A DNA stretch of 64,000 bases from Microbacterium sp. (GTDB lineage: Bacteria; Actinomycetota; Actinomycetes; Actinomycetales; Microbacteriaceae). The stretch covers positions 49,627-113,626 of the forward strand of contig NZ_WOYQ01000069.1 of assembly GCF_011620665.1 (NCBI RefSeq), in the 5' to 3' direction. This document shows positions 33,003 through 36,411 of this stretch, piece after piece. Each line of letters starts with the position of its first letter. Position 1 is the first letter of the stretch. The notes below the pieces were generated by a model that worked only from the letters and a program-made list of their open reading frames with translations, searched no databases and was not told the origin of the DNA. Made by a program: the position numbers and the translations under genes.

Positions 33003-34295
33003 TCAGTATGTGCGGAGCAGATCGGTGAGCACGCGCTGACCGAAAACGAGTGCATCGATCGGGACGCGCTCATCCACACCGTGGAACATACCGGTGAAAT
33101 CGAACTCGGTGGGAAGGCGCAGCGGCGCGAAGCCGTATCCGGTGATGCCGAGCGCAGCGAGAGCCTTGTTGTCGGTGCCGCCGCCCATCAGGTAAGGCAG
33201 CACCGGAATCCCCGGATCGTGCCGCTCCAGCGCGGCGAGCATCGCAGCGACGAGTGCACCCGAGAAAGGCGTTTCCAGACCGATGTCGCGGTGAATGACA
33301 TCCAGTTCGATGTCATCCCCCACGATGCGCTGTATCTCAGCGACGATCGCCTCCTCCTTCCCCGGCAGGGTGCGCACGTCGATGGCGGCGACCGCAGCAT
33401 CCGGAATGACATTGTGCTTGTAACCGGCGGTCAGTCCGGTCGGGTTCGTCGTGGTGCGCAGCGTTGATCGCAGAAAGCCGGATGCCGGTCCGGTCCGGTC
33501 GGCGACGCTGTCGGGGTCTGCCGGGTCCGCGCCGCTCAGGGCGGCCAGGCCGTCGATCGTCTGACGCGTCGTTCCCATCAGCTCGACGGGCCACGCCGTC
33601 CGCCCGAGAGCGGCGACGGCCTCGGCGAGGCGTGTCACGGCGTTGTCCGGGTGATATCGGCTGCCATGGCCGGCCGAGCCCCGGGCACGGAGGCGAAGCC
33701 AGACGAGCGCCTTCTCCCCCACCTGAAGCAGGTACGCACGCCGCTCGCCGACCGCGATCGAGAAGCCGCCGACCTCGCTGATGGCCTCTGTCGCGCCGGC
33801 GAACCACTCCGGCCGGTTGCTGACGACCAGCTGCGAACCCTCGACGCCGCCGTTCTCCTCGTCCGCGAAGAACACGACGATGATGTCGCGGGCGGGACGT
33901 TCTCCTGCCCTCAGAAGCTCTGACACCGAGGCGAGAATCATGGCATCCATGTTCTTCATGTCGACAGCGCCACGGCCCCAGAGCATGCCGTCGCGGATCT
34001 CGCCTGCGAAGGGATCGACACTCCAGTCGCTCTTCACCGCCGGGACCACATCAAGGTGCCCGTGGAGCACGAGCGCGGGCTTGCCGGGGTCCTGCCCCAC
34101 CACCCGCGCCATGAGGTTCGTGCGCCGCGGAATGGGCTCGTAGTACTCGGGCACGAGTCCCAAGGCCCCGAGGTAGGCGCCGACGTACTCTGCGGCCTCG
34201 CGCTCGCCGTTCGCGCGGCCCTCTCCGAAGTTCGTCGTGTCGAAGCGGATCAGGTCCCGGGCGAGCCGTGCGACCTCGGGCAAATCCTCTGACAT
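33003..34295 (-). CDS. M20/M25/M40 family metallopeptidase
   Basis: LVLHGHLDVVPA, WGRGAVDMKNMDAMILAS, FFADEENGGVEGSQ. Confidence 0.93.
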   Translation of the reverse strand: MSEDLPEVARLARDLIRFDTTNFGEGRANGEREAAEYVGAYLGALGLVPEYYEPIPRRTNLMARVVGQDPGKPALVLHGHLDVVPAVKSDWSVDPFAGEIRDGMLWGRGAVDMKNMDAMILASVSELLRAGERPARDIIVVFFADEENGGVEGSQLVVSNRPEWFAGATEAISEVGGFSIAVGERRAYLLQVGEKALVWLRLRARGSAGHGSRYHPDNAVTRLAEAVAALGRTAWPVELMGTTRQTIDGLAALSGADPADPDSVADRTGPASGFLRSTLRTTTNPTGLTAGYKHNVIPDAAVAAIDVRTLPGKEEAIVAEIQRIVGDDIELDVIHRDIGLETPFSGALVAAMLAALERHDPGIPVLPYLMGGGTDNKALAALGITGYGFAPLRLPTEFDFTGMFHGVDERVPIDALVFGQRVLTDLLRTY

Positions 34296-34340: not shown

Positions 34341-34363
34341 AAAAAGGGCCCCTTTCGGGACCC
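34341..34363 (-). terminator. Stem-loop terminator, probably the ancestral tRNA-Leu(GAG) terminator
   Basis: Minus strand GGGTCCC-GAAA-GGGGCCC-TTTTT, immediately past the distal copy of the tRNA 3' end. Confidence 0.7.
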
Positions 34364-34370
34364 TCTTCCA

Positions 34371-34395
34371 TCTGTGCGCGAGGGGGGACTTGAAC
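34371..34395. repeat. Distal att-like direct repeat (duplicated tRNA-Leu 3' end)
   Basis: tctgtgcgcgaggggggacttgaac is identical to 35164-35188, which spans the 3' end of tRNA-Leu(GAG). Confidence 0.92.
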
Positions 34396-34585
34396 TGACC
34401 TCGACCCCCTCGCGCGCAGGGTCACGAATCGGCGTTCAGGCCCGCAAATACAGGGCAGTCGGCGGGTAGCCCTGTGGACAACTACACGGCGCTACGTGTA
34501 CCTGCATGACTCTTAGCACCTGAGTTAGCACTTTCGGCACCCCGAAGTGGCGACGTTGAGAGGGGATCAAACGTAGGCTGAAAGC

Positions 34586-34775
34586 ATGGTCGTGATCGCG
34601 GTCGTTTTCCCATTCGTACTGCTGCTCGCGGCAGTGGTGATTCAGTTGGCTGCTAACGGCGTGCTCCGTCGGAACAGGGTCGCTGGGATTCGCGTTCGGT
34701 CAACCCGGAGTACCGATGTCGGGTGGGTCGCCGGTCACAAGGCTGCCGCCCCGGAATTCGTCAAGTCAAGTGAGA
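34586..34775 (+). pseudogene. Truncated SdpI-like membrane protein fragment
   Basis: MVVIAVVFPFVLLLAAVVIQLAANGVLRRNRVAGIRVRSTRSTDVGWVAGHKAAAPEF resembles the SdpI family N-terminus and then runs into IS-end-like sequence tgagacagctggtttctag. Confidence 0.6.
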
Positions 34776-35100
34776 CAGCTGGTTTCTAGACTGTTTCTGC
34801 GATCGGGGTGGTGGCGGGCGTCTGTTTCGTTGGTTCGTTGATCCAGACCTCGGTGCTGATTTGTGGTGGCCGGGGCCGTCGCGCGAAGCGCTCGGGATGC
34901 TGGATCCAGGCGCTGTTCAGCGTCTGCTGCCGATGTTCGTCGATGTCAGCGTAGGTACCTTGGTGCACGGAAGCGGGCGTGTGCCAGCCGATCCCGGAGT
35001 GGTGGTGGACGTGGTTGTAGTCGGTGAAGAACCCGTCGCAGAACGCTTGCGCTTCGGTGCGGGAGTCGAAGTGGTGGGGGAAGTCCGGCACTTTTTCTAG
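34770..35100 (-). mobile_element. Remnant of an IS3-family transposase (OrfB integrase-core C-terminus)
   Basis: ORF 34786..35163 contains FDSRTEAQAFCDGFFTDYNHVHHHSGIGWHTPASVHQGTYADIDEHRQQTLNSAWIQHPERFARRPRPPQISTEVWINEP; no DDE N-terminal part remains. Confidence 0.85.
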
Positions 35101-35111
35101 CACTTCGACGG

Positions 35112-35160
35112 AAAATGACCTCCGACCCGAGATATAAAATCCCTGGTCAGAGGCCATTTT
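35112..35160 (-). terminator. Hairpin terminator downstream of tRNA-Leu(GAG)
   Basis: aaaatgacctccgacc (35112-35127) pairs with ggtcagaggccatttt (35145-35160); T-run on the minus strand. Confidence 0.65.
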
Positions 35161-35167
35161 CACTCTG

Positions 35168-35252
35168 TGCGCGAGGGGGGACTTGAACCCCCACGCCCTA
35201 TACGGGCACTAGCACCTCAAGCTAGCGCGTCTACCTATTCCGCCACCCGCGC
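35168..35252 (-). tRNA. tRNA-Leu (GAG anticodon)
   Basis: Reverse complement gcgcgggtggcggaataggtagacgcgctagcttGAGgtgctagtgcccgtatagggcgtgggggttcaagtcccccctcgcgca; acceptor stem pairs fully with one G-U. Confidence 0.96.
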
Positions 35253-35319: not shown

Positions 35320-36411
35320 CTAGGCCGCCACACCGAACACCAGGCCCAGCGCATACGTCACAGCCGCGGCACCGAACCCGATCGCGAGCTGGCGGATCCC
35401 GCGGAGAAGCGGAGGTGCACCGGAGAGAAGGCCGACCATGGCGCCGGTCGCCAAAAGTGCCGCGCCGACCATCAGCAGCGCCAGGAGCACGGCCGGAGCG
35501 CCGCTCAAACCGAACACCCACGGCAGCACCGGGATGATGGCCCCGGAAGCGAAGAAGAGGAAGCTCGACCCCGCTGCTCCCAGCGCACTGCCGACGGTCT
35601 CGTGATCGCCGACGCGCTCGGGCTCTCGGGCATACGGAGTCGATCGGTCCGCGGCCTGCGCCGTGGCGATGACCTGCTGCGCCGCGGCGATCGAGTCCGC
35701 TGCGCTCATCCCGCGCGTGCGATAGACCAATGCCAGCTCGTTCACATCCAGGTCCAGATCGGGCAGCACCTCGTCGGCGTAGTTGCTCGGCTCGGTGGCA
35801 TCGAGCAGCTCACGTTGTGATCGGACTGAGACGAACTCCCCCGCGCCCATCGACAATGCCCCCGCGAGAAGCCCCGCGATACCGCTGAAAAGGACGAACT
35901 GCGGTGCGACCCCTGTTGCCCCGATACCGAGGACCAGCGCGAGGTTGGAGACGAGCCCGTCGTTCGCCCCGAACACCGCAGCCCGGAACGTGCCCGAAAG
36001 ACGGCGGCGGCCGCGGGCGGCGAGGCCCCGGACCACCTCGCGGTGGATCCGCTCATCCGCCACCATCCGGGCGGTCGCGAACGGCTCACTCTGATAGGGA
36101 GAGCGGCCCTCTTCGTTCTGCGCAAGCGCGAGCACGAAGATCGAACCGAATCCGCGGGCGAGCAGGCCCAGCATCCGCGAGCCCGTGCTGGCGCGCGGCA
36201 GGCGCACGGGCTCTCCGCCGAGGAGTTCCAGCCAATGCTCCTCGTGCCGACGCTCGGCCTGGGCCAGCGCCAACAGGATCTCTCGTTCCTCCCCCGCCCG
36301 GCGCTCCGCGAGTGCGCGGTACACGCGACCCTCGGCGCGTTCATCGACGAGATATCGCATCCAGCGACGACGGTCGCGTGCACTCGGCTGGGCGGGGCCG
36401 GGAGAACTCAC
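35320..36411 (-). CDS. VIT1/CCC1-family transporter with N-terminal ferritin/rubrerythrin-like domain
   Basis: C-terminal VIT1 features FRAAVFGANDGLVSNLALVLGIGAT, SMGAGEFVSVRSQRELL; N-terminal E-rich helical region with EERE..ERRHEEHW. GTG start. Confidence 0.87.
   Translation of the reverse strand: MSSPGPAQPSARDRRRWMRYLVDERAEGRVYRALAERRAGEEREILLALAQAERRHEEHWLELLGGEPVRLPRASTGSRMLGLLARGFGSIFVLALAQNEEGRSPYQSEPFATARMVADERIHREVVRGLAARGRRRLSGTFRAAVFGANDGLVSNLALVLGIGATGVAPQFVLFSGIAGLLAGALSMGAGEFVSVRSQRELLDATEPSNYADEVLPDLDLDVNELALVYRTRGMSAADSIAAAQQVIATAQAADRSTPYAREPERVGDHETVGSALGAAGSSFLFFASGAIIPVLPWVFGLSGAPAVLLALLMVGAALLATGAMVGLLSGAPPLLRGIRQLAIGFGAAAVTYALGLVFGVAA

Follow-up and report, generated by a model that had tools for sequence, protein, structure and literature searches.

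The segment that follows the 3′ end of a tRNA-Leu(GAG) gene in Microbacterium sp. is, with a probability of about 94%, the remnant of an integrative mobilizable element (IME) that integrated at this tRNA and decayed to a cis-mobilizable element (CIME). The direct basis for this assignment consists of the att repeats, the empty sites and full same-site elements of relatives, the genes of these relatives, the geometry of the element ends, and the truncation of an sdpI-like gene within the scar. The window is the whole 64-kb stretch of DNA that was analysed. Its flanks have their nearest homologues in Microbacterium records, and the M20 tree likewise puts the genome in this genus. Its relevant features are collected in Table 1.

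Table 1. Features of the scar and its flanks (positions in the window)
Feature	Position	Strand	Source or remark
M20-family peptidase, downstream flank	33003..34295	-	
Original tRNA terminator, 793 bp displaced	34341..34363	-	
Distal att core, 25-bp copy 2	34371..34395	-	
Inverted repeat around distal core, CTGTGCGCGAGGGGG / CCCCCTCGCGCGCAG	34372..34419	.	
DnaA-box-like 9-mer TTGTCCACA, -86 from distal core	34473..34481	-	
GTGCTA, distal putative arm-type site, -124 from distal core	34514..34519	-	
GTGCTA, distal putative arm-type site, -136 from distal core	34526..34531	-	
5′ part of sdpI/YfhL-like gene, cut by IS	34586..34753 (end approximate)	+	
3′ part of IS3-type insertion sequence: transposase C terminus (rve_3), probable right end; 5′ part deleted	34754..35087	-	
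GTGC, rest of second tRNA-side putative arm site (+97), cut at deletion joint	35088..35091	-	
GTGCTA, first tRNA-side putative arm-type site, +85 from core	35098..35103	-	
Element-borne hairpin, likely tRNA terminator now	35113..35160	-	similar structure at same position in intact elements
tRNA-side att core, 25-bp copy 1, GTTCAAGTCCCCCCTCGCGCACAGA	35164..35188	-	
tRNA-Leu(GAG), integration target, 3′ end towards scar	35167..35252	-	ARAGORN
VIT1-family membrane protein, upstream flank	35320..36411	-	

The integration site, empty and occupied

A sequence-only reading had described a perfect 25-bp duplication that covers the tRNA 3′ end, and its coordinates proved exact. The two copies are direct repeats, identical to the att core of the element family described below, written GTTCAAGTCCCCCCTCGCGCAC. 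They are the only exact copies in the whole 2.2-Mb genome, so the 25-mer is not the common repeat that this reading had named as grounds for abandoning it. A copy with one mismatch lies in another tRNA-Leu of the same genome (contig C31), and 100 dinucleotide shuffles yielded 0 copies by chance with three mismatches allowed. On the minus strand, the inverted repeat around the distal core reads CTGCGCGCGAGGGGG...CCCCCTCGCGCACAG; it is largely conserved among Leu-type elements.

Many Microbacterium possess the empty site that had been predicted, in which the tRNA, a terminator, and the M20 peptidase gene follow one another. The gap between tRNA and M20 gene stays below 260 bp (72–250 bp) in 15 of the 21 loci in which the tRNA points to M20, as it does in the window. 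At these sites the terminator comes straight after the tRNA (e.g. GGGTCCCGAAAGGGGCCC in L039), and joining the window flanks in silico yields an ordinary empty site. Six long-gap loci (L035, L037, L040, L075, L091, and L108) carry other sequence beside the tRNA; having no second core, they were rejected as elements of the scar's kind. A comparison of the window with loci L034–L113 showed that, in part of the genus, the tRNA gene has the opposite orientation with respect to the neighboring VIT1 and M20 genes. The M20 tree requires four such orientation changes, two of them forced by well-supported branches.

In the window, the terminator of the type found right after the tRNA at empty sites lies 793 bp off, beyond the distal core, which bears out the proposed displacement by ∼0.8 kb. 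This distal terminator folds with −19.7 kcal/mol (z −3.7), and the different hairpin that adjoins the tRNA (about 35113–35160) folds with −34.2 kcal/mol (z −7.2). Both fold far better than shuffled sequences, in line with the earlier description of the two structures. The tRNA-side hairpin was folded in the window only, whereas intact elements were compared by alignment; by this comparison, the terminator that likely took the place of the displaced one at the tRNA is also present in intact family members.

A pattern search for the distal core hit 15 of the 369 Microbacterium genomes, one of them being that of the window. The decisive comparison for the origin of the scar is provided by G037 and G167, which harbor full elements between the same tRNA-Leu(GAG) and M20 gene, in the order of the window; these elements measure 15.86 and 21.73 kb. 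In both genomes VIT1 is located beyond the tRNA (the G167 match breaks off where the compared stretch stops). Across the genus, core-to-core spans are 3.06, 9.2, 9.8, 12.2, 12.4, 14.5, 15.9, 15.9, 16.0, 16.5, 21.7, 29.7, and 32.9 kb, and the smallest element with an intact integrase and relaxase measures 9.75 kb (G041). The elements target tRNA-Leu(GAG) and tRNA-Leu(CAG), which have a common 3′ end. In G033 (contig C28; L117, L118, L154, and L155) two family elements of 29.7 and 35.9 kb stand in tandem behind one tRNA-Leu(CAG), demonstrating that accretion occurs in this family. The stretches examined from G110 and G262 contain no tRNA or core.

Some further arrangements were seen at tRNA-Leu genes. 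G003 carries a possible scar (L124:2024–2200), with a second copy of the tRNA 3′ end 156 bp downstream and a terminator-like hairpin at each copy. Two nearly full-length tRNA-Leu matches lie 1.6–1.9 kb apart in L120 (G043) and L121 (G057), and in the latter the first match is followed by a hairpin of the element type.

Ends and interior of the scar

End positions were counted from the start of GTTCAAGT. In nearly all elements, GTGCTA occupies positions +85 and +97 relative to the tRNA-side core, and −136 and −124 relative to the distal one. Exceptions are G359, in which the tRNA-side sites are off by one base, and one changed site each in G359 and G033; the more distant element G037b has no GTGCTA at those positions. 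The scar retains 3.5 of the 4 sites, with +85, −136, and −124 complete and GTGC left of +97. Within the window, GTGCTA occurs four times altogether, and spaced pairs are confined to the two scar ends.

The GTGCTA pairs are probably arm-type sites bound by the arm domain of the integrase. The arrangement resembles the att sites of lambda-type tyrosine integrases, in which a core is likewise flanked on either side by short, repeated arm sites with constant spacing. In contrast to those, the arm sites of this family are predicted from their conservation, and a DnaA-box-like 9-mer is fixed in the long arm. This 9-mer, written TTATCCACA, lies at −86, between the distal arm sites and the core. It takes the form TT(A/G)T(C/G)CAC(A/C) in 14 of 15 aligned element ends, a count that allows small variants of TT(A/G)TCCACA; the exception is G065, which has TCATCCACA. 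The 9-mer closely resembles the consensus DnaA box.

Between the cores, the 793 bp contain only a 3′ fragment of an IS3-type transposase and a truncated sdpI-like gene, neither of them complete. The C-terminal transposase fragment (34786–35087, minus strand) lies within an open frame at 34786–35163, and its homologues are annotated as IS3 family. The exact IS was not identified among plasmids, where the best match reaches about 56% identity. On the plus strand, the open frame at 34586–34789 starts with an sdpI/YfhL-like N terminus. In G330 the same element end runs into an intact sdpI homologue of 118 amino acids (L185:4121–4477). The distal end and sdpI of the window align with this G330 stretch at 77% identity over 381 bp, up to ∼34753, where the IS sequence starts. 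On the tRNA side, IS homology starts at CCGGACTTCC, immediately past the GTGC of the second GTGCTA site. The switch in the sdpI alignment and the joint at GTGC indicate that an IS entered sdpI and that a deletion joined the IS interior to the other element end; we infer that the insertion came before the deletion. Since the left end of the IS is missing, the deletion mechanism is not directed by any visible IS end. The G330 end (contig C89) lies at a different chromosomal site on a short contig, and its core is divergent to the right of GTTCA. The intact ancestor of this particular copy was not found.

A second copy of the 0.8-kb interior is absent from the 369 genus genomes searched. Had close relatives all held the segment, with neither an empty-site allele nor a larger insert, this would have spoken against the sequence-only reading.

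Genes and distribution of the intact relatives

Intact relatives encode a tyrosine integrase (PF00589 with PF14659) near the tRNA and, after it, an XRE-type helix-turn-helix regulator (HTH_3; a weak match in G065). They also have a relaxase-helicase of ∼1155 amino acids (TrwC, PF08751, NF041492 MobF). Of the two same-site elements, G167 has this relaxase intact, and in G037 none was seen. Toxin-like genes (Fic, Zeta) occur in some intact elements, along with varied cargo. Among the scanned subset of ORFs (from G041, G073, G065, G148, and G359) there is no coupling protein, VirB4, VirD4, or other type IV secretion system (T4SS) gene, and the proteins scanned from intact relatives include no phage structural or packaging family. 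An integrase, regulator, and relaxase of these types, with no T4SS genes seen in the proteins scanned, make the parent elements look like IMEs. The full elements foreseen by the sequence-only reading thus exist at the same site and with the same core in G037 and G167; they are IME-like, however, and not the prophages or complete integrative and conjugative elements (ICEs) that it expected. The G037 element additionally harbors a SecA2-type accessory SecA (L114:11707–14439), a weak match to heme A synthase (CtaA) at L114:2187–3146, and two further tyrosine recombinases.

Having their own integrase and relaxase, and no T4SS or coupling protein in the proteins scanned, the intact relatives resemble canonical IMEs. 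They differ in the relaxase type: as of 2017 no canonical IME was known with a MobF relaxase, and the one IME known from Actinobacteria had a MobV relaxase (PMC5704250). TrwC relaxases have been described in T4SS-based actinobacterial ICEs (PMC3218068), which are alike in being integrated actinobacterial elements with a TrwC/MobF relaxase, whereas the proteins scanned from the present family include no VirB4 or VirD4, and its smallest element with intact integrase and relaxase measures 9.75 kb. A short search of the literature after 2017 found no description of this Microbacterium family.

The integrase is present at ≥71% identity in about 20 genomes of the genus, and relatives of it occur in genomes of 15 of 85 genera sampled from the Microbacteriaceae, nearly all at tRNA-Leu, tRNA-Ser(GGA), or tRNA-Arg(CCT). 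With falling integrase identity, the target shifts from tRNA-Leu to tRNA-Ser(GGA) to tRNA-Arg(CCT) (L158–L174). The window's own genome encodes no close relative of the integrase, the best match reaching 38% over 74 amino acids; the scar itself holds only IS3 and sdpI fragments. Plasmid and phage collections yielded only distant integrase matches, below 60% identity, which are uninformative.

Origin and classification of the scar

The scar is best explained as follows. Recombination by the element's tyrosine integrase, between the chromosomal tRNA-Leu(GAG) and an attP that contained the tRNA-Leu 3′ end, would have restored the tRNA at one border of the insert. The original 3′ end and terminator would have come to lie at the opposite border, and the element would have supplied the tRNA with a terminator of its own. 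Later, an IS3-type element would have entered the sdpI-like gene, the last gene of the element, and a deletion from the IS interior to the second tRNA-side arm site would have taken out the integrase, regulator, relaxase, and remaining cargo. The residue would be a CIME with both att cores and 3.5 of 4 putative arm-type sites, devoid of an integrase. The sequence-only reading had proposed integration at the tRNA 3′ end and a subsequent near-total loss of cargo; the empty sites and full same-core elements of relatives now support this.

Phages often carry tyrosine integrases that use tRNA 3′ ends, and remote relatives of the integrase (no more than about 31% identity among the best matches) are present in phage and satellite-phage records. 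An origin from a prophage instead of a mobilizable element is nonetheless very improbable: all 1,514 matching phage records stay below 60% identity, and the gene content of the intact relatives, with a TrwC/MobF relaxase and no structural or packaging family in the proteins scanned, led us to reject it. We regard a duplication of the tRNA 3′ end without an integrase, by IS activity or replication slippage, as hardly credible. The IS3 fragment inside the segment and the G003 locus, whose second tRNA 3′-end copy has no arm sites, would fit such an event, but the conserved ends, the arm sites at fixed distances, and the full elements of G037 and G167 would be left unexplained. A chance repeat or another kind of tRNA duplication was likewise rejected on the element ends common to the family. 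The assembly is a draft in 82 contigs, and IS fragments often lie at misjoins; even so, an assembly artefact has a very low probability, as the IS fragment has no near copy in the assembly that could have caused a misjoin (only 69% over 154 bp), and both ends run into the chromosome in the expected order.

Another question is whether the scar still works as a minimal element, to be excised or mobilized in cis once a related IME has integrated beside it and supplies the integrase. Both cores are intact and would probably still be usable, three putative arm sites are complete, the G033 tandem demonstrates accretion, and transfer of CIME–ICE tandems is known (PMC5704250). Such activity is unlikely, given the cut fourth arm site, the 38% best match to the integrase in this genome, and the single occurrence of the interior among the 369 genomes.

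A CIME is an element without integration and transfer genes that has kept attL and attR (PMC5704250). In the scar, attL and attR persist as direct repeats, only IS3 and sdpI fragments remain in place of integration and transfer genes, and ends and position are those of the integrase-bearing elements of G037 and G167. From these sequence features, we class it as a decayed IME and, in formal terms, as a CIME. It shares with known CIMEs (PMC5704250) the att-flanked position in a tRNA 3′ end, the loss of integration and transfer genes, and IME relatives that form tandems, but differs in its very small size (0.8 kb), the absence of functional-looking cargo, and the partial loss of one arm site. A wider proposal is speculative and rather improbable as a whole: the elements might form an undescribed MobF IME family across the Microbacteriaceae, in which a conserved DnaA box in the long arm would let the host replication initiator take part in assembling the recombinase complex or couple the timing of excision to replication, and the scar may still be excisable by an integrase supplied in trans.

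The scar documents an ordinary process well and by itself changes little; the element family at large is of somewhat greater interest. At the tRNA-Leu genes of one genus there is a graded series from the empty site through the full element and the tandem to a 3-kb wreck and the 0.8-kb scar, and the scar leads to a relaxase-bearing element family with a precisely repeated attachment-site geometry that could be tested in the laboratory.
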